Shown here in pieces: positions 13,904 through 57,738 of a stretch of 64,000 nt of DNA. This DNA is from Actinomyces slackii. GTDB lineage: Bacteria; Actinomycetota; Actinomycetes; Actinomycetales; Actinomycetaceae. The stretch covers positions 1,240,001-1,304,000 of the forward strand of contig NZ_LR134363.1 of the NCBI RefSeq assembly GCF_900637295.1. The letters run 5' to 3'. A program made the position numbers and the translations under genes. A model generated the notes under the pieces. The model saw only the letters and a list, made by a program, of their open reading frames with translations, made no database searches and was not told where the DNA came from. Numbering within the stretch: position 1 is the first letter of the stretch; every line of letters begins with the position of its first letter.

Positions 13904-13930
13904 CTGTCACCGATGTCCTGAGACATAACA
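13904..13930 (-). repeat. IS right terminal inverted repeat
   Basis: Twenty-seven bases ending in ACA, complementary to the left terminal repeat at 26 positions. Directly followed by the second copy of the 15-base target duplication. Confidence 0.9.
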
Positions 13931-13981
13931 CCCTCGTTGGATGACGCATACCCTCGTCCGGTACGCAGACGCACGTCCGAC
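13931..13981 (+). repeat. 106-bp island repeat, copy 2, right part
   Basis: Begins with the target duplication CCCTCGTTGGATGAC and completes the repeat copy started at 12419. Without the element and one duplication the copy would be 106 bases, like the others. Confidence 0.9.
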
Positions 13982-14251
13982 GGCACCCGCCCGACGTCGT
14001 CGCCGACCGTCGCCGACCGACGCCGCCCGCCACCGGGGCCGGCGGTTCGGAGGCCCCGTGATGACAGGAGGGCTGGTCGACGTCGGGCAGGTAAGGAGCA
14101 TGCAGGGCCTGTGCGGGTTGGGAGGGCGATCCGCAGAATTCCGCGGGGCATCGGATCACCGGCCTGTGGACAGGAGCCGGCTGCCGCGGAGTTCTCCACA
14201 GGCTCCCCGTTGGGGCGTGCTTGACGAGGCGCCGCCGCACACACTCGCCAC
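13982..14251 (+). promoter_or_regulatory. Upstream region of the nuclease gene
   Basis: About 270 bases without a gene. It contains the inverted repeat CCTGTGGA (14163-14170) and TCCACAGG (14195-14202), which could be an operator or part of the promoter. TTGACG at 14221 could be a -35 but no matching -10 follows. Confidence 0.35.
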
Positions 14252-15307
14252 ATGGACACAACGAGCCCAAACAGCATCCCCAACTACCTGCGCCCCCGTC
14301 TCTACTACGCCGACAGCTGCGGCAGCCGCAACCTGTGGCGAACTCCCGGACTGCAGCGGGTCATGCGGGGCGTCTACATCAAGCTCGAGCTCGATCGGCA
14401 GCGCTGGGAGCAGCGCTTCACGGTCTCCCTGGGCCGAGCCATGGCCGCCCTGCGGACGACGCCCTCTGCTCGCTGCCTGACCCACACCTCCGCCGCGCTT
14501 GTCCACGGCCTGTCCATGTGGACCCAGGAGCCCGACGTCTACCTCGCCCTGCCCTCGCGCCCGCAGCGCTGCACAGTGCTGCTGCCGACCTTCCACTTCC
14601 CCGCCACGGGGGAGCCCGTCGTCGTTCAGCGCGCCGGTGTCTATGACGCGCGGGTGCGAATCCACCGACGCTGCCTCGAGGTCGCCGATGAGGAGATCGA
14701 GGTCGTGTCCGGGGTGGCTGTGACCACAATTCTGCGCACTGCCTTCGACGCCGCCTGCGACGAGCCGCCGGCCAACGCCCTGTCGATCGCCGATGCGGCG
14801 CTGCGCCGATACTGCCAGCCCGATCTTTGGCACCCGGAGGCCTGTCAAGACCGCCTGGCGCAGGCCCGTGCCTACTGGGATGCGCTCCTGGAGCGTCATC
14901 GTGGGCGCCGAGGCCTCCCGCGGGCGCGGGCGGTCCTGGCGGTAGCCAGTCCCTGGGCGATGCTGCCCGGTGAGAGCGTGCTGCGCTGGCTGGTGCTGTC
15001 GTTGGGCCTGCCGGCCCCATCGCTCCAGCGCCTGGTGGTCACGAGGCGCGGCGAGTACTTCATCGACCTGTGCTGGCCGGAGTTCGGCATCGCCCTGGAG
15101 TTCGATGGGCGGTTGAAGTACCGCACCGAGGATGACGTCTTCGCCGAGAAGCTCCGGCAGGACGCCATCCACGACCTGGGGTGGGACTTCCTGCGCGTGA
15201 CCTGGCAGGACCTTCAGGACATGGCGGCCCTGGCCGACCGCCTGCTGAGGCTCTTCCCCGCCTCGGTCGTCGCCGGTCTTCGGCCGCCGCGCGACCTGGC
15301 GTGGTGA
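14252..15307 (+). CDS. AbiEi-like / PD-(D/E)XK nuclease fusion protein
   Basis: A 351-residue orphan protein. The N-terminal part (to about 60) has the GLQRVMRGVYI pattern of AbiEi-type winged-helix antitoxins, and the middle (about 75-165) has the HTSAALVHGLSMW and VSGVAVTTILRTAFD blocks seen in that family. The C-terminal part (about 236-350) carries a Vsr/DUF559-like nuclease core with E241, D272 (FIDLCW), E283, D285 (EFDGRLKY) and K289. No partner toxin or antitoxin gene is adjacent. It stands alone inside the 106-bp repeat island between rplL and rpoB. ATG 14252 is the only good early start, with no clear Shine-Dalgarno; an 8-bp inverted repeat CCTGTGGA/TCCACAGG lies at 14163-14202. A related protein is encoded at 40181. 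Function as a defence or toxin gene is inference. Confidence 0.75.
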   Translation: MDTTSPNSIPNYLRPRLYYADSCGSRNLWRTPGLQRVMRGVYIKLELDRQRWEQRFTVSLGRAMAALRTTPSARCLTHTSAALVHGLSMWTQEPDVYLALPSRPQRCTVLLPTFHFPATGEPVVVQRAGVYDARVRIHRRCLEVADEEIEVVSGVAVTTILRTAFDAACDEPPANALSIADAALRRYCQPDLWHPEACQDRLAQARAYWDALLERHRGRRGLPRARAVLAVASPWAMLPGESVLRWLVLSLGLPAPSLQRLVVTRRGEYFIDLCWPEFGIALEFDGRLKYRTEDDVFAEKLRQDAIHDLGWDFLRVTWQDLQDMAALADRLLRLFPASVVAGLRPPRDLAW

Positions 15308-15414
15308 GGTGAGCGGCGGGAGCGGCGGCACGGCGCTGGCCGACGGCGCCGGTGCCGCCGCAGTCCACGCGCCCGCCCGGCCCGCTGCCCTCCACCCGCC
15401 CGGCCCGCCGGCTG

Positions 15415-15520
15415 GATGACGAGTGTTTGCGTCGGGGACGAGCGTTTGCGTCATTTGCCTATGTGCGGGCCCTCGTTGGATGACGCATATCCTCGTCCGG
15501 TACGCAGATGCACGTCCGAC
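15415..15520 (+). repeat. 106-bp island repeat, copy 3
   Basis: Same unit as copy 1 with GTG in the first arm and GGGCCC in place of GGACCC in the loop. It begins the downstream array and is 253 bases from copy 4. Confidence 0.9.
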
Positions 15521-15667
15521 GCCGCCGGCCCGATGTCGTCACCGACCGACGCCGCCCGCCACCTCACCCGCGGGCGCCTGCCGCCCCGCCGGCCGTGCTC
15601 GCCGTTGCCGCCCGCATGCCCGTCGCTGCCTGCTGCCCTGCCTGGCGCCCGCCCGCCGCGCCGGCTG

Positions 15668-15773
15668 GATGGCGAGTGTTTGCGTCGGGGACGAGCGTTT
15701 GCGTCAGTTGCCTATGTGCGGACCCTCGTTGGATGACGCATTCCCTCGTCCGGTACGCAGATGCACGTCCGAC
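15668..15773 (+). repeat. 106-bp island repeat, copy 4
   Basis: Begins GATGGCGAG rather than GATGACGAG; otherwise the standard unit, with CAGTTGCC in the loop. Confidence 0.9.
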
Positions 15774-15920
15774 GCCGCCGGCCCGATGTCGTCACCGACC
15801 GACGCCTCCCGCCACCTCACCCGCGGGCGCCTGCCGCCCCGCCGGCCGTGCTCGCCGTTGCCGCCCGCATGCCCGTCGCTGCCTGCTGCCCTGCCTGGCG
15901 CCCGCCCGCCGCGCCGGCTC

Positions 15921-16026
15921 GATGACGAGCCTTTGCGTCGGGGACGAGCTTTTGCGTCAGTTGCCTATGTGCGGACCCTCGTTGGATGACGCATACCCTC
16001 GTCCGGTACGCAGACGCACGTCCGAC
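15921..16026 (+). repeat. 106-bp island repeat, copy 5
   Basis: Standard unit with GCATACC and AGACGCACG variants, the same variants as copies 2 and 7, which suggests shuffling between copies. Confidence 0.9.
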
Positions 16027-16101
16027 GGCACCCGCCCGACGTCGTCGCTGTCCGCGGCCGCCCGTCCGGCCCGCTGCCCGTCGCCTGCCACCCGCCCGCT
16101 C

Positions 16102-16207
16102 GGTGACGAGTGTTTGCGTCGGGGACGAGCTTTTGCGTCAGTTGCCTATGTGCGGACCCTCGTTGGATGACGCATTCCCTCGTCCGGTACGCAGATGCAC
16201 GTCCGAC
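16102..16207 (+). repeat. 106-bp island repeat, copy 6
   Basis: Standard unit beginning GGTGACGAG; its preceding spacer is the short 75-base type. Confidence 0.9.
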
Positions 16208-16354
16208 GCCGCCGGCCCGATGTCGTCACCGACCGACGCCTCCCGCCACCTCGCCCGCGGGCGCCTGCCGCCCCGCCGGCCGTGCTCGCCGTTGCCGCCC
16301 GCATGCCCGTCGCTGCCTGCTGCCCTGCCTGGCGCCCGCCCGCCGCGCCGGCTC

Positions 16355-16460
16355 GATGACGAGCCTTTGCGTCGGGGACGAGCTTTTGCGTCAGTTGCCT
16401 ATGTGCGGACCCTCGTTGGATGACGCATACCCTCGTCCGGTACGCAGACGCACGTCCGAC
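16355..16460 (+). repeat. 106-bp island repeat, copy 7
   Basis: Last copy, 430 bases upstream of the rpoB start, followed by a polypyrimidine tract. Confidence 0.9.
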
Positions 16461-16889
16461 GGCACCCGCCGCGGCCCACCCACCGCCGCCCGCCGCGGCC
16501 CACCCACCGCCACCCGCGCGCCCACCACCCCACCCACCCGCCGACCGGCCTCCGCCACCCCACCCACCCGCCAACCGGCCTCCGCCACCCCGCCGGCTCC
16601 GCCGCCTCCACCCCGCCCACCACCGCCCACCGCCGCGGTGTGAGTATTGCGGGCCCAGGGAGTGGGGCAGTATGCGCGACTGTGGCGGGAATCGCAAGCA
16701 CCCCGCGCTGCTCGCCGTAGATACGGCTGACCCGGGCGTGTACGCTAGCGCTTTGCGTCCATTGTGTGCATTCGTCTCAGCGCTCTCTTCAGACCCGTGG
16801 GTCCCACAGGCCCACGCGGCCGGTGAGCCCCGAGCGCGCATGCGCCCAGTGCTCGCCGAGTGGTCCCCGATCTGAGGGAAGGATCCCCT
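16461..16889 (+). promoter_or_regulatory. rpoB upstream region with polypyrimidine tract
   Basis: From 16465 to about 16635 the plus strand is almost only C with A and few G, including two 30-base units at 16526-16555 and 16556-16585; the complement is a run of GGTGGG-type blocks able to form G-quadruplexes. The last 250 bases are ordinary and must hold the rpoBC promoter. A possible -10 TACGCT is at 16741-16746, without a clear -35. Confidence 0.5.
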
Positions 16890-24495: not shown

Positions 24496-24511
24496 GCCCC
24501 GCCGTCGGGCA

Positions 24512-24556
24512 GCCCCGGGGCCCGGACCGCTGGATCAGCGGTCCGGGCCCCGGGGC
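24512..24556 (+). terminator. Terminator of rpoBC
   Basis: A perfect 19-bp stem (GCCCCGGGGCCCGGACCGC and its complement) around a 7-base loop TGGATCA, without a T-tract. Placed directly after rpoC. Confidence 0.85.
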
Positions 24557-24835
24557 GTCTGACCGGCCCCCTGGCAGTCACTGCCCGCCCGGTCGGTGCG
24601 TCGAGCGAGGCATCTCACCCTGAGGCTCGCGCCCCGCGCCCGGCCCGGCCGTGGGGGAGTGGGTGCGCGGAAAACGCGGCATGGCACGCCCGGGCCAGGA
24701 CCAGTGACGCGGCTCGCCGAGCCTTGCGCCGGCTCGCGCGTGCCGTACCGTGAGGGGTGTCCGCATATGCGGGACCGGCGTCGGCGCACCTGCTGGCCCG
24801 GTAGAGGCAGGCCATTGCACGAGGAGTCCGTCATC
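24557..24835 (+). other. Gap between rpoC terminator and membrane protein gene
   Basis: About 280 bases with no supported gene. It should hold the promoter of the downstream gene; GTACCGTGAGGGG and CATATGCGGG near 24745-24775 are visible but I cannot define -10/-35 boxes with confidence. Confidence 0.4.
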
Positions 24836-39675: not shown

Positions 39676-39977
39676 GCGAGCAGACCAGCACTGAAGCAGT
39701 GGAGACCGGCACGCCCCAGGCCACCGAGCGCAACCAGCGCAAGGTCCGCCGCGGCTACGTGGTCTCCGACAAGATGGACAAGACCGTCGTCGTCCTGGTC
39801 GAGGAGCGCTACAAGCACTCCCTGTACGGGAAGGTCCTTCGCCGTTCCAAGAAGGTGAAGGTCCACGACGAGCACAACGAGGCCGGCGTGGGCGACCTCG
39901 TCTCCATCATGGAGACCCGCCCGCTGAGTGCCACCAAGCACTTCCGTCTTCTGGAGATCATTGAGAAGGCCAAGTGA
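39672..39977 (+). CDS. rpsQ: 30S ribosomal protein S17 (uS17)
   Basis: A 101-residue early assembly protein with the OB-fold core [20 protein letters not shown] and [18 protein letters not shown] 39672 overlaps the rpmC stop codon. It is the last gene of the S10 block; the hairpin repeat begins 13 bases after its stop codon, so ordinary read-through into rplN is interrupted by the islet. Confidence 0.97.
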
Positions 39978-39990
39978 TCTGAGGCCCCCT

Positions 39991-40075
39991 CCCGCCTCCT
40001 TCGCGAGGTAGACATTTTCCGCCGAGGTAGACGCATTCGCCGTCGACCTCGGCGGAAAACGTCTACCTCGGCGCA
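39991..40075 (+). repeat. 85-bp hairpin repeat, left copy
   Basis: Matches 41181-41265 at 83 of 85 bases in the same orientation. It contains a 25-bp inverted repeat with arms at 40004-40028 (starting CGAGGTAGACATTTTCCGCC) and 40046-40070, separated by a 17-base loop; 24 of 25 pairs match. It lies between rpsQ and the nuclease gene. Confidence 0.93.
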
Positions 40076-40180
40076 ATGGTGGGGCGTCCCGGGATCCACC
40101 TCGAGCGGCTGTGCAGGCGCTGTCCCCAGGGCTGCGCATCGGCCTGGCACCGCGGCTCCGGCCGGTCGCACTCTGGGGCC

Positions 40181-41167
40181 ATGAGCAGCAACTGTCAGAT
40201 CCGCAGCGTCCCACCAGGTGAAGGCGAGCAGGCATTCCGGGCAGGGCCACCGTCTCAGGGGCAGGCCCTGCCACTGCTGCTGAGCTCTGATTCTCAGACC
40301 AATGCCTCCCAGCATCTGTCCCGCGCGCCCGGGCTGACCCGCATCAGCAGCGGTGTCTACGTGCCCACTGAGAGATGGGCGCAGGCCACACACCAGGACC
40401 GCCACCTCGCCAGGATCCGGGCCGCGCAGGAGGTCTGTGGCGGGGACCTCGTGCTCATGGGCGCATCGGCCGCGCTCTGGCAGGGGATCGGCGTCGTCGG
40501 TCCCATCCCTGATCAGGTCCAGTGCGTGGGGGAGCGGGGCGATCGACGAGGCACCTCCGGACTTCGCCGCCACGAGCGCGCCGGACTGGGTGACCTCATC
40601 GAGGTCGGCGGCATCCTCACCACGAGCGCGGCTGACACCGCCGTCGACTTGGCTCGCTGCGGTGGACTCGTCCAGGGCGTGTGCGCCATGGACTCCGCAT
40701 TGGCGCAGGGGCGGGTGACCGGTGAGGCGATCGAGGATGCCGTGGAGAGGCTGGGCCGTGGAGCGCGCGGGGTGCGCTGCGCCCGCACGGCTGCCCATCT
40801 GGCGGACGGCCGCTCCGAATCACCGGGGGAGTCCCTGTCACGGGTGCGGATGTGGCAGGCCGGCCTGCCCCGGCCAGAGCTGCAGTACGAGGTGTGTATC
40901 GACGGCCGGATCTACCGCTTCGACTTCTTCTGGGCCCGGCCAAGGGTCGACGGCGAGTTCGACGGCCGCAAGAAGTACCGGCGCGAGAGCTTCGGCAAGA
41001 ATGCCGAGCAGACGGTGTGGGAGGAGCGCCAGCGCGAGCGCGCCATCATCCGGGCCGGCATCGAGGTGTCTCGATGGACCTGGGATCAGGCCTGGCGGCA
41101 CGAGGGCGCCGCCATGATTGAGGAGCTCGCCCGCTGCGGTGTGCACCCCACCGGCCAGCGCTGGTGA
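40181..41167 (+). CDS. AbiEi-like / PD-(D/E)XK nuclease fusion protein
   Basis: A 328-residue orphan protein related in layout to the one at 14252. The AbiEi-like pattern GLTRISSGVYVPTERW (51-66) is followed by the GASAALWQGIGV block (94-105) and VGGILTTSAADTAVDLAR (142-159). The C-terminal nuclease-like core has E217, D248 (YRFDFFW), E259, D261 and K264/K265 (GEFDGRKKY). Start ATG 40181 is a choice; the frame is also open to an ATG at 40076, exactly where the left repeat ends, and neither has a strong binding site. It sits alone between the S10 and spc blocks, flanked on both sides by the 85-bp hairpin repeat. A role in phage defence, restriction or toxicity is inference; no partner gene is present. 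Confidence 0.72.
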   Translation: MSSNCQIRSVPPGEGEQAFRAGPPSQGQALPLLLSSDSQTNASQHLSRAPGLTRISSGVYVPTERWAQATHQDRHLARIRAAQEVCGGDLVLMGASAALWQGIGVVGPIPDQVQCVGERGDRRGTSGLRRHERAGLGDLIEVGGILTTSAADTAVDLARCGGLVQGVCAMDSALAQGRVTGEAIEDAVERLGRGARGVRCARTAAHLADGRSESPGESLSRVRMWQAGLPRPELQYEVCIDGRIYRFDFFWARPRVDGEFDGRKKYRRESFGKNAEQTVWEERQRERAIIRAGIEVSRWTWDQAWRHEGAAMIEELARCGVHPTGQRW

Positions 41168-41180
41168 AGGTGGTTCCCCA

Positions 41181-41265
41181 CCCGACTCCTTCGCGAGGTA
41201 GACATTTTCCGCCGAGGTAGACGCATTCGCCGTCGACCTCGGCGGAAAATGTCTACCTCGGCGCA
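41181..41265 (+). repeat. 85-bp hairpin repeat, right copy
   Basis: Second copy, 1190 bases from the first, beginning 13 bases after the nuclease stop codon. The 25-bp arms (41194-41218 and 41236-41260) are perfectly complementary here. Differences from the left copy are at 41185 and 41250. Confidence 0.93.
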
Positions 41266-41557
41266 CGAGAGAAGAGGGGCGTGAGAGGAAAGGCACAGGC
41301 GTGCGGCAGACTCCCAGGTTCCGCGTCATGGGGCGGCTGGACTAAGCTTATGGGGTTGCGCGCGCCCTCGGTGCGCCCAGCAGAGACCTCGTGCCGCGTG
41401 CGCCTGTGTCTGCTGGGAGTCCCGCGCCGCGGACCTCCTCACCTACCGGTCAGCCCCGTGCCTCCGGGCGGCGGGGCGGCGGCGCGCAAGTCCAGAAGAA
41501 CGTTCGGCTAGGCTCGAGTGCTGCTCGAGAACCGGCTCGACGACAGGAGAACACTCA
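41266..41557 (+). promoter_or_regulatory. spc operon upstream region
   Basis: About 290 bases without a gene between the right hairpin repeat and rplN. It must supply a promoter for rplN onward since the islet separates the blocks. TAAGCTTATGG (41344-41354) and TAGGCT (41511-41516) are possible -10 elements; neither has a good -35. Confidence 0.4.
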
Positions 41558-41926
41558 ATGATCCAGCAGGAGTCGCGACTGAAGGTCGCCGACAACACCG
41601 GTGCCAAGGAGATCCTTTGCATCCGTGTTCTCGGCGGCTCGGGTCGGCGCTATGCGGGTGTCGGCGACACCATCGTCGCCACCGTGAAGGACGCCATTCC
41701 CGGTGGCAACGTGAAGAAGGGCGAGGTCGTCAAGGCCGTCGTGGTGCGCACCCGCAAGGAGCGCCGCCGCCCGGACGGCTCATACATCCGCTTCGATGAG
41801 AATGCGGCTGTCATCCTCAAGAACGACGGCGACCCGCGCGGCACGCGCATCTTCGGCCCCGTCGGCCGTGAGCTTCGGGACAAGAAGTTCATGCGCATCG
41901 TCTCGCTCGCCCCGGAGGTGATCTGA
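41558..41926 (+). CDS. rplN: 50S ribosomal protein L14 (uL14)
   Basis: A 122-residue subunit-interface protein, standard length, with [20 protein letters not shown] and [13 protein letters not shown] intact. First gene of the spc block here, 290 bases after the hairpin-flanked nuclease islet; preceded by GACAGGAGAA. Confidence 0.98.
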
Positions 41927-45909: not shown

Positions 45910-45931
45910 GCACCCTCAGCCAGTGCCGCAC

Positions 45932-45975
45932 CGGACCCCGGGCGGCCAGGACACATCCTGGCCGCCCGGGGTCCG
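45932..45975 (+). terminator. Terminator after rplO
   Basis: A perfect 20-bp stem starting CGGACCCCGGGCGGCCAGGA with a 4-base loop, 23 bases after the rplO stop codon. Confidence 0.85.
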
Positions 45976-46305
45976 TCGTCGTGCACGGCGAGGCGGCCCG
46001 CGCCACCGCGGCCGGCGCTTGGGCGGGAGGCCGGCAGCCTCAGGGGCGCCGGCCGGCAGATCCGCGCGCCCACCGGCGCGAGGCGGTCCCTGAAGCGCCC
46101 CGATGCGTCCCCGCGGAGGCCCCCACGATGGGACCCGGGTCACAGCGGAGCGGCGGTCAGGGCCGTTGCGTGACAAAGCCCGCATTGCGAGGCGATCTCA
46201 AGGCCAGGTCCGTGGGCAGGAAACGGTAGTCTGTCCGGGGCGCCGCACGCGCCGTGTCGCGTGCCCGCGCGATGGCCACACACCCCCGAGTCCACAGGAG
46301 ATCGA
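45976..46305 (+). promoter_or_regulatory. secY operon upstream region
   Basis: A 330-base gap without a gene. A likely -10 TAGTCT is at 46227-46232, about 75 bases before the secY start; the -35 is not clear. A repeated GGCC-rich stretch precedes it. Confidence 0.4.
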
Positions 46306-52654: not shown

Positions 52655-52673
52655 GGCCCTGAGCCGCAGCGAT

Positions 52674-52717
52674 GATGCGGGGGCCCGGCCACCTCCTGGT
52701 GGCCGGGCCCCCGCATC
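52674..52717. terminator. Bidirectional terminator between rplQ and pntB
   Basis: A perfect 20-bp stem starting GATGCGGGGGCCCGGCCACC with a TCCT loop. It lies between convergent rplQ (plus) and pntB (minus), so it can serve both. Confidence 0.85.
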
Positions 52718-52744
52718 GTTGTGCCTGCGATTCGTGCATGCGCC

Positions 52745-55981: not shown

Positions 55982-56740
55982 TCAGGGGCGGACCATCGCC
56001 CAGCAGCGGGCGCCGCCGGTCATGCCGGCCTCATTGGGGACGATGACGACGTCCTCGCCGATCTTGCCCAACTGGGCGGCCGTGATCCGCCGGGAGTTGC
56101 CTCCGCCCAGGTAGAGGCGGTCCCACAGGTACATGGGGCGCAGGGCGTCGACGACGCGGCGCACCCTGCGGGACCAGTGCGCATCGCCCAGGCGCAGGCG
56201 CTCGTGCTCGCCGATGTAGTCGTCGTAGGTCAGGCCCCAGCGCACGGGGCCCTGGGAGACCTCCACATGGGGCGCCAGCAGCCCGTTGTCGAAGACGGCG
56301 TTGCCCAGGCCCGTGCCCAGGGTGACGATCATCTCCAGGCCGTGCCCGGTGACGACTCCGGCCCCGGCCACCTCGGCGTCATTGAGCACCAGGGTGGGGG
56401 CGCCCAGGGTCTGGCTGACGGCCCCGCCCATGTCGAAGCGCGCCCACGCCTCCACCAGCTCCGGCAGCACGCGCGAGCGCGGACCGTCCCGGGTGATGTA
56501 GTGGGGCGTGGCCACCACGACGCCGTGGCGGATCATCCCCGGCATGCCCACGGTCACCCGGTCGGCCGTGGGGAGCTGGTCGGCCAGGGAGGCGATGGTC
56601 TCCACGAGCTTGGCCGGCGGGAGCGGGTAGGGGGTGGGGGTGCGCACGGCGCGCGAGACGATGGTGCCCTCGGCGTCGAGCACCGAGGCCTTGATGCCGC
56701 CGCCGCCGCAGTCCACTGAGAGCGTTGTCGTTGAGGTCAT
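55982..56740 (-). CDS. ROK-family sugar kinase, polyphosphate-glucokinase-like
   Basis: A 252-residue cytoplasmic kinase. The phosphate loop LSVDCGGGGIKASVLD is the ROK DxGGxxxKxxxxD pattern, LNDAEVAGAG is the catalytic Asp region and VTLGTGLGNAVF is the ROK signature loop. The length and the absence of a ROK zinc-binding CxCGxxGC motif point to the polyphosphate/ATP glucokinase branch common in actinobacteria, but the phosphoryl donor cannot be fixed from sequence. It starts 68 bases from truA on the opposite strand and ends 206 bases before the pntA start. Confidence 0.8.
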   Translation of the reverse strand: MTSTTTLSVDCGGGGIKASVLDAEGTIVSRAVRTPTPYPLPPAKLVETIASLADQLPTADRVTVGMPGMIRHGVVVATPHYITRDGPRSRVLPELVEAWARFDMGGAVSQTLGAPTLVLNDAEVAGAGVVTGHGLEMIVTLGTGLGNAVFDNGLLAPHVEVSQGPVRWGLTYDDYIGEHERLRLGDAHWSRRVRRVVDALRPMYLWDRLYLGGGNSRRITAAQLGKIGEDVVIVPNEAGMTGGARCWAMVRP

Positions 56741-56808
56741 GGGTCCATGACATCACGTCGAGGGCACCGCGGTCGGCCTCATGGCCCGCGACGTGATCTC
56801 ATGGGGCC

Positions 56809-57738
56809 ATGACACTGCACGAGGCAAGCGCCGAGAGCATCCGGGTGCGCGAGAGCATCCGGGTGCGCCTGGACCTGGCCTATGACGGCGGGGGCTTCAG
56901 CGGCTGGGCGGCCCAGCCGGGGCTGCGCACCGTCGAGGGCGTGCTGAGCGAGGCGCTGGCCACGGTGCTGCGCGTGCCGGTGCGACTGACCGTGGCCGGG
57001 CGCACCGACGCCGGCGTTCACGCGGCCGCCCAGGTGGCCCATCTCGATGTGCCCGAGGCGGCCTGGAGCGCCCTGCCCGGGCGCTCGGATCGTCCTGCCC
57101 AGGAGGCCCTGGCCGCGCGCCTGGCCGGGGTGCTGGGCCGCCAGGCCGGGCCCGGGTGCCCGCGGGGGTCCAGCGATCTCGTCGTCCTGCGGGTCAGTCG
57201 CGTCAGCGCGGATTTCGACGCCCGGTTCAGCGCCCTGGAGCGCCGCTACACCTACCGGATCGCCGATGCCCGCTCCCCGCGCGACCCGCGCCGCCGCGGT
57301 CATGTGCTCTGGCTGCCCGATGCGCTTGACGTGGAGGCCATGGCGGCCTCGGCGAGCCCCCTGCTGGGCGAGCACGACTTCCTGTCCTTCTGCAAGCCCC
57401 GCCAGGGCGCCACGACCATCCGCACCCTGACCGCCCTGCACTGGCAGCGGGTGGCGCAGGGGCCCGCGGCCGACGCCGGCCTGGTGACCCTGACGGTCAG
57501 GGCCGACGCCTTCTGCCACTCCATGGTCCGCTCCCTGGTGGGGGCGGGGCTGGCCGTGGGGCAGGGGCGCCGTCCGGTGGCCTGGCCCGGCGAGCTGCTG
57601 GCGGCCCGGACGCGCCAGGGCGCAGCCCCCGTCGCCCCTGCGCATGGGCTGAGCCTGGAGGGCGTTGACTACCCTGCCGACGAGGAGCTCGCCGCCCAGG
57701 CCCGACGCGCCCGCGTCACCCGCTGCCTGGGCTGCTGA
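56809..57738 (+). CDS. truA: tRNA pseudouridine(38-40) synthase
   Basis: A 309-residue enzyme isomerising uridines 38-40 of tRNA. The catalytic Asp lies in AGRTDAGVHA (about 64-73), and FSALERRYTYRI and the C-terminal FCHSMVRSLVGAGL-type motif are present. The N-terminus carries a perfect 18-base tandem duplication at 56833-56868 (ESIRVR twice). truA usually follows rplQ directly; here pntAB and the ROK gene lie between them on the other strand. Confidence 0.95.
   Translation: MTLHEASAESIRVRESIRVRLDLAYDGGGFSGWAAQPGLRTVEGVLSEALATVLRVPVRLTVAGRTDAGVHAAAQVAHLDVPEAAWSALPGRSDRPAQEALAARLAGVLGRQAGPGCPRGSSDLVVLRVSRVSADFDARFSALERRYTYRIADARSPRDPRRRGHVLWLPDALDVEAMAASASPLLGEHDFLSFCKPRQGATTIRTLTALHWQRVAQGPAADAGLVTLTVRADAFCHSMVRSLVGAGLAVGQGRRPVAWPGELLAARTRQGAAPVAPAHGLSLEGVDYPADEELAAQARRARVTRCLGC

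Follow-up and report, generated by a model that had tools for sequence, protein, structure and literature searches.

A predicted nuclease gene and the palindrome that brackets it probably constitute a two-part, REPtron-like system built on an unrelated enzyme, an AbiEi-type/Vsr-like nuclease with its cognate palindrome. In our best reading, the first part is a chromosomal gene that would encode an AbiEi-like N-terminal part joined to a Vsr/MTES_1575-like nuclease domain, and the second is a 60- to 75-bp palindrome with four short putative sites (two direct, 19 bp apart, and their mirror image), which brackets the gene and is dispersed in gene-free form at the 3′ ends of other genes. This reading rests on sequence comparisons that bear on the association of gene and palindrome across genera, a fixed palindrome architecture, the matching of palindrome to gene type, dispersal, location at gene 3′ ends, and a missing stem-loop behind rpsQ.

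The locus lies in the window, the 64,000-nucleotide stretch of DNA analyzed here (G000:C1:1240001-1304000), which belongs to a 3.22-Mb single-contig genome (G000, referred to below as the own genome) of an Actinomyces-group bacterium, in the genus of Actinomyces oris and its relatives. The nuclease gene is the sole gene between the stop codon of rpsQ (39699-39977, forward strand), the last gene of the S10 block, and the start of rplN (41558-41926, forward strand, placed by open reading frame), the first gene of the spc block, and around it stand two hairpin copies in direct orientation (39986-40075 and 41176-41265) with a spacing of 1190 bp and 97% identity across 90 bp. A preliminary description of this DNA had reported two direct copies 1190 bases apart, matching at 83 of 85 bases and beginning 13 bases after the rpsQ and nuclease stop codons, and all of these values proved correct on remeasurement (39991-40075 versus 41181-41265, both on the forward strand; stop codons ending at 39977 and 41167). 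The inverted repeat that it saw in each copy is also present, with arms of 30 nt rather than 25 bp and 7 nt between them. The left copy, defined by sequence comparison, folding, and genome search, has a 73-bp core at 40001-40073 (arms 40004-40033 and 40041-40070, 93% complementary), and the right copy, defined by sequence comparison and genome search, has its 73-bp core at 41191-41263 (arms 41194-41223 and 41231-41260, 97% complementary). As RNA, the left copy folds with -54.2 kcal/mol (z -8.8 versus 200 shuffles, none of which equaled it). The nuclease open frame spans 40076-41167; alignments with homologues begin only near residue 20-29 of this reading, and we therefore placed the start at ATG 40181, which defines a gene of ≈328 aa at 40181-41167 on the forward strand (open reading frame, alignments, profile matches, and model). 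The window harbors four further strong palindromes that are unlike the hairpin family (24502-24566, 45923-45984, 52664-52727, and 56736-56813).

A search of the own genome with the left copy returned 63 two-strand matches that correspond to 32 places (73-bp core), and a covariance model built from these 32 copies recovered the same 32 together with weak matches at two more places. With 32 copies genome-wide, chance similarity and a private duplication are ruled out, and a known RNA is ruled out by Rfam, which gave just eight matches (miRNA/sRNA families), all well below the gathering score. The 32 copies stand beside unrelated genes, 31 of them close behind stop codons. Such a common, scattered repeat is what the preliminary description had named as refuting its reading; the scatter is real, but the conclusion does not follow, since homologous genes in other genera are bracketed by palindromes that are unrelated in sequence yet alike in architecture (see below). 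The hairpin core comprises four 13-mers, two direct and two inverted (CGCCGAGGTAGAC, 6 bases, CGCCGAGGTAGAC, 9 bases, and the mirror image), and the exact 11-mer CCGAGGTAGAC occurs 80 times in the own genome versus 4 times for its reversed control, with nearly all occurrences within these hairpins. Pairing holds in 94.2% of cells over the 32 copies, and changes on both sides are found in 8 pairs versus 4.8 on average after shuffling (8 being reached in 1 of 500 shuffles); the window-type palindrome is thus modestly but measurably maintained. Both window copies share a TCGC start that is absent from the other 30, and therefore the pair itself arose by local duplication or conversion. Among the one-sided copies whose orientation can be scored, 14 of 16, counting both bracket copies, point the same way as the preceding gene (p 0.004), a test that applies to the window family only, 5 of 6 one-sided copies in the A. 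oris set and 11 of 11 in the Cellulomonas set being too symmetric to score. One half-size copy at G000:C1:3198890-3198924 retains the inner hairpin only and is possibly a deletion product.

The own genome also contains a second palindrome family and distant paralogues of the nuclease gene. The paralogue at 3,118,985 is flanked by a pair of perfect 72-bp palindromes that are identical to each other and differ from the window type, and this second family numbers 20 copies, nine of which are identical perfect 72-bp palindromes at eight places (the bracket being one place with two). Five of the 11 variants carry the same change in both arms and are still perfect palindromes. The identical copies at scattered places suggest recent spread, and the mirrored arm changes suggest copying or correction through the hairpin. 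No target-site duplication was visible by eye beside the 20 copies, the flanks of which tend to extend the palindrome. A further distant paralogue, identified by protein comparison, lies within the window (14363-15307, forward strand, start codon uncertain) and is also repeat-bracketed, with a part-copy of its repeat upstream (13930-14024, forward strand, by repeat comparison) and a tandem array downstream, whose first two 253-bp units occupy 15334-15839 on the forward strand and which continues to at least 16064. This array contains a weaker palindrome of similar build at 15428-15506 (21/30 pairs); across 13930-16470, its units measure 253 bp and in part 434 bp, and a 19-bp tandem repeat is found at 16100-16139.

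A relative of the protein is present in 52 of the 59 genomes searched, the own genome included. Inspection of 29 relative loci, one of which (L035) ends at a contig end, revealed a palindrome (≥23/32 pairs) on both sides of the gene in 19, on one side or only farther off in seven, and none in three. The bracket sequence varies by lineage, with TTGGACCGC, GGACAAC, CGACACC, and GAGCCGGGC among the types. When named genomes were scanned with an alignment of 30 homologues (A2, which omits L037 and L045), 195 relatives were obtained, and a scan of genome contigs with a single pattern, ESPGES[LVM]SR, kept the best 80 of these 195 for examination; they derive from Actinomyces, Cellulomonas, Flexivirga, Knoellia, Rhodococcus, Frigoribacterium, and other Actinobacteria. 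Considering the 76 of 80 loci with full 350-bp flanks, 31 of 76 family genes have a strong palindrome in both flanks, as against 2 of the 311 neighboring genes, which were scored with identical flank windows (Fisher 1.3e-22), and mutually similar flanks are found for 42 of 76 versus 3 of 311. Palindromes of ≥21/30, where present, begin at a median distance of 172 bp from the gene on the upstream side, for the most part at 137-276 bp (10th to 90th percentile), and of 30 bp from the stop codon on the downstream side. At 22 of the 80 loci, a few of them with cut flanks, neither flank carries a palindrome of ≥22/30.

Homologues' palindromes measure 60-75 bp and differ in sequence per gene lineage, and within each arm direct repeats recur 19 bp apart. 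To quantify this architecture, 87 palindromes from 58 of the 80 loci were reduced to 40 that are mutually dissimilar. Bases that lie 19 positions apart in an arm are identical in 49.9% of cases versus 28.4% in shuffled arms (z 12.1); lag 19 is the sole raised lag, other lags from 6 to 30 reaching at most z 1.7. Four sites at a fixed 19-bp spacing but of free sequence are the trace that would be expected of a DNA-binding protein with lineage-specific recognition. The A. oris group harbors three gene types at different loci, each with its own palindrome, and the local score between palindromes averages 47.8 for the same type across genomes versus 8-12 for different types in one genome (five pairs). 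The lowest within-type score is 10, because in L085 the script took an extra palindrome of another type; at this locus another gene's palindrome type, absent in L083, sits between the nuclease stop codon and the gene's own palindrome. Protein and palindrome similarity are correlated over 58 loci (Mantel r 0.55, 0 of 999 permutations), a correlation that alone cannot separate co-evolution from shared descent, whereas the within-genome comparison does, and judged by these scores the palindrome follows gene type and not genome in the A. oris group.

We classified 102 copies, namely the 32 of the window family and 70 from five other sets (the latter being copies within examined loci and not from whole genomes), using gene calls from a codon-based script, and 94 of 102 lie within 80 bp of a stop codon; by gene context, 49 are convergent, 49 tandem, three divergent, and one unplaced. 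At some gene ends the stop codon falls inside the palindrome. Another stem of ≥8 bp outside the palindrome is found in 0 of the 46 intergenic 3′ regions of the own genome that hold one palindrome versus 20 of 84 control 3′ regions (p 8e-5), a depletion that is partly confounded by the little sequence left beside the palindrome.

The rpsQ-rplN junction was compared among relatives. Fifty loci gave 43 readable junctions from 42 genomes (G013 twice), the remaining seven lacking rpsQ in the stretch, one of these being the own genome's locus. None of the 43 carries a window-type palindrome. The possibility that all relatives carry the gene here is ruled out by the same 43 junctions. Gene and hairpin do belong together, as the preliminary description suspected, and the relatives' site is without both; a simple cassette of gene plus one repeat is not borne out, as the own genome contains no second close copy of the window nuclease gene. 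A stem-loop follows rpsQ within 150 nt at 42 of the 43 junctions when two mismatches are allowed (5% in random windows), a count adopted after perfect stems (≥10 bp) had given 18 of 43 and missed mismatched stems. The own genome's junction has no such stem besides the palindromes, and the left palindrome occupies the position of the relatives' stem-loop. The simplest reading of this comparison is that the palindrome replaced the S10-block stem-loop after rpsQ.

The window-type model matched 9 of 49 genomes of the genus, own genome included, with lineage-specific sequences; two-strand matches number at least 81 in G059, at least 98 in G061, at least 31 in G029, and from at least 2 to at least 8 in the other five. 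G059, an assembly of ≈100 contigs, harbors ≈40 window-type copies without a close homologue of the nuclease gene, which may have been lost or not assembled there; the distant nuclease relative that G059 does have stands between copies of a further, different palindrome. The A. oris-type palindrome matched all 10 of the other genus members selected and gave no match in the own genome, and the Cellulomonas palindrome gave 50 dispersed two-strand matches in C. pakistanensis, 10 matches in C. triticagri, and none in two Flexivirga genomes. Matches of the A. oris type number 17-51 where the gene is ≥75% identical (n = 6) versus 12-24 without it (n = 4; p 0.038), in a small test with one overlap (G065) and a 75% cut-off chosen after the counts were known. 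In groups of related species the nuclease gene keeps one locus, which speaks against the mobile cassette of the preliminary description, in favor of which stands the private TCGC start of the window pair. Palindromes in syntenic 10-kb loci are mostly common to neighbors, with L085 versus L083 as the one clear case of presence and absence, and spread there would therefore be slow.

Neither Pfam nor NCBIfam gave a match to the window protein at E ≤ 1, and PADLOC AbiEi models match it at E 1.3e-4. This agrees with the preliminary description of an AbiEi-like/nuclease gene without a partner: no AbiEii gene lies within the bracket, where a single gene stands between the palindromes, with rpsQ and rplN as neighbors. 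Against Pfam-type models, the 30 homologues gave three matches to AbiEi_4, three to AbiEi_1, and one each to REase_MTES_1575 and DUF559, and a single PADLOC AbiEi model matches up to 17 of the 30. We aligned 68 of the 80 relatives with the window protein (A3, 69 sequences), omitting L087, L133, L137, and L150 for length, L088, L109, and L134 for in-frame stops, L151 for an X, and L089, L093, L096, and L115, which were taken as near-duplicates. D248, E259, D261, K265, E282, and R285 are invariant in all 69, as is E213-S-P-G-E-S, whose invariance is an effect of selection because ESPGES[LVM]SR was the scan pattern. The AlphaFold2 model is confident (pLDDT 89.1, pTM 0.87) and from residue 198 its elements follow the order helix, helix, three strands, helix, strand, helix; D248 and E259 fall on neighboring strands, and this predicted order is that of PD-(D/E)XK enzymes, to whose motif we tentatively assign these residues. 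Searches of the PDB by sequence and of PHROGs gave no relative of the window protein, a phage collection gave no match to the protein or to the window palindrome, viral contigs gave no nuclease relative (32 pattern stretches, 0 confirmed), and plasmids gave four relatives, partial and distant, and no match to the second family's palindrome. A plasmid or phage origin is ruled out on these grounds.

The closest known parallel is the REPtron, in which a RAYT/TnpA-REP gene is associated with REP/REPIN repeats, as excerpts of PMC6006769, PMC3116915, PMC3733652, and PMC2817692 describe it. In both, a short palindromic repeat flanks a chromosomal gene and also occurs scattered through intergenic DNA, and a genome can hold several gene/repeat pairs, each gene with its own repeat and with a pairing that follows gene type. 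The system described here is nonetheless ruled out as a RAYT system or REPtron member: the Y1 HUH transposase (PF01797) gave 0 matches in the own genome, with 5 of 14 control genomes positive, and the GTAG/GTGG foot is missing, the window-type arm having GTAG inside each unit and other lineages' palindromes being without it by reading. The protein differs as well (AbiEi-like plus Vsr/REase-like), as do the repeat (a 60- to 75-bp four-site palindrome with a 19-bp period) and the hosts (here Actinobacteria), and copy numbers of at least ≈5-50 per searched genome compare with usually more than 100 for REPs in the excerpted literature. AbiEi-family proteins bind sets of inverted repeats, four of which are found in the Rv2827c promoter according to the excerpted text of PMC7319586; an AbiEi-like DNA-binding part and several inverted sites near the gene are thus shared with AbiEi antitoxins, whereas AbiE type IV toxin-antitoxin systems, as depicted there, differ from the present genes, which have no adjacent AbiEii toxin gene, carry a nuclease fusion, and have a palindrome that also lies behind the gene and is dispersed. 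The Vsr-like nucleases REase_MTES_1575 (PF18741) and DUF559 are linked to the family by weak sequence matches (1 of 30 homologues each) and by strand/helix order in the model, although the window protein itself matches no Pfam model and the word fragment "palindrom" has 0 occurrences in PMC3710099, the REase_MTES_1575 paper.

In an integron cassette, a gene is likewise followed at once by a structured, lineage-specific four-site palindrome, attC; here, in contrast, there is no cassette array, and solitary copies stand at unrelated genes. MITEs and insertion sequences differ in that no target-site duplication is visible by eye beside the 20 second-family copies, and a homing endonuclease gene differs in that both window palindromes are intact and not split, if the palindrome is the target. 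Among the matches listed in a search of the open-access literature (subscription journals and preprints being outside its scope), no paper deals with palindrome-bracketed AbiEi/REase genes, and the partnership of a nuclease with a spreading DNA repeat looks to be undescribed.

Binding, cutting, and mobilization are the activities that we infer for the protein. It would bind the four sites of its own palindrome and probably cut or nick that palindrome, or other hairpin or cruciform DNA; a break repaired from a palindrome copy would convert native terminator hairpins at gene ends to the family palindrome. The copies may keep a terminator-like role and so be tolerated, and the bracket could let the protein control its own gene by autoregulation. 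Taken further, and at somewhat less than even odds, this may be a REP system of a second kind that evolved independently: a Vsr-like nuclease of the PD-(D/E)XK type, joined to an AbiEi-type DNA-binding part, would cut hairpin or cruciform DNA at gene ends and turn native terminators into copies of its own four-site palindrome, which would thereby spread in actinobacterial genomes, while protein and palindrome diverge together and several distinct pairs coexist in one genome. Sequence observations that weigh against our best reading are the G059 copies without a close gene, the 22 of 80 loci without a strong palindrome, the stability of syntenic palindromes, and junction genes that have no palindrome.

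The protein might instead be a DNA-binding regulator or nucleoid-type protein with the palindrome as its operator, the dispersed copies acting on transcript ends or chromosome structure and the nuclease domain having no part in their spread. We consider such an autoregulator with a regulon rather unlikely, even though binding to inverted repeats is documented for AbiEi-type proteins (Rv2827c binds four, in the excerpt of PMC7319586), the upstream palindrome mostly precedes the gene by 137-276 bp, and 14 of 16 scorable copies share the orientation of the preceding gene. Copies sit behind stop codons and not at promoters, with only 3 of 102 between divergent genes; D248, E259, D261, and K265 are invariant; and an operator set alone leaves the nine identical perfect palindromes unexplained. 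The narrower suggestion of the preliminary description, an operator duplicated around its own regulator gene, accounts for neither the downstream copy nor the dispersed ones. Alternatively, the gene could be a passenger that tends to land between palindromes which are themselves host terminators of an ordinary kind or MITE-like repeats mobilized by another agent. Such a reading would fit the location of the palindromes at gene 3′ ends and the missing rpsQ stem-loop where a palindrome stands. It is improbable in view of the matching of palindrome to gene type and the bracketing of 31 of 76 versus 2 of 311 genes; moreover, positions 39900-41700 of the window show no T-run typical of an intrinsic terminator (0 sites with a GC-rich stem followed by a T-run), and no target-site duplication was seen by eye at the 20 second-family copies. 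Least probable in our estimation is a selfish or defensive restraint, in which the nuclease is a toxin or anti-invader enzyme titrated or marked by the dispersed sites, and a cell would pay for the loss of either gene or sites. Conflict systems do include AbiEi and Vsr-type REase domains (PADLOC AbiEi matches; the Vsr-like REase MTES_1575, in the excerpt of PMC3710099), but the bracket holds no partner gene, and phages, viral contigs, and plasmids gave nothing beyond the four partial, distant plasmid matches.

If the nuclease-palindrome partnership is confirmed, it would be a convergent system with an unrelated, easily assayed nuclease, implying that the logic of a dispersed palindrome plus an enzyme arises repeatedly. 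The spread of such repeats and their retention by hosts could then be tested in a second way, the mechanism of spread of RAYT/REP systems being described as unresolved in the excerpt of PMC3116915. Furthermore, it would assign a role to a group of solitary AbiEi/REase-like proteins and account for the lineage-specific hairpins that follow actinobacterial genes, and its numerous naturally occurring pairs of protein and target could serve to decode DNA recognition.

Finally, the junctions and syntenic loci hold several additional features. A very distant REase-like gene is found at the rpsQ-rplN junction in L198 and L203 (2 of 43) and, by reading, in L195 and L197, with no palindromes; in these four (G067, G035, G004, and G032 for L195, L197, L198, and L203, respectively), the AbiEi/REase-like junction gene lies on the opposite strand. 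The junctions of L205, L206, and L212 contain open frames that by reading resemble secreted repeat proteins. Judged from its contents, the S10-spc junction looks like a place of gene gain and loss. In G014, positions 240-312 of the L209 junction hold a TTGGACCGC-type palindrome, and the nuclease gene of the same genome (L052) is bracketed by that type. The species of L093 and L096 share a dispersed A. oris-type palindrome, at whose left edge L093 carries an insertion of ≈1.7 kb with a low coding score (L093 7689-9395 versus L096 8310-8317).
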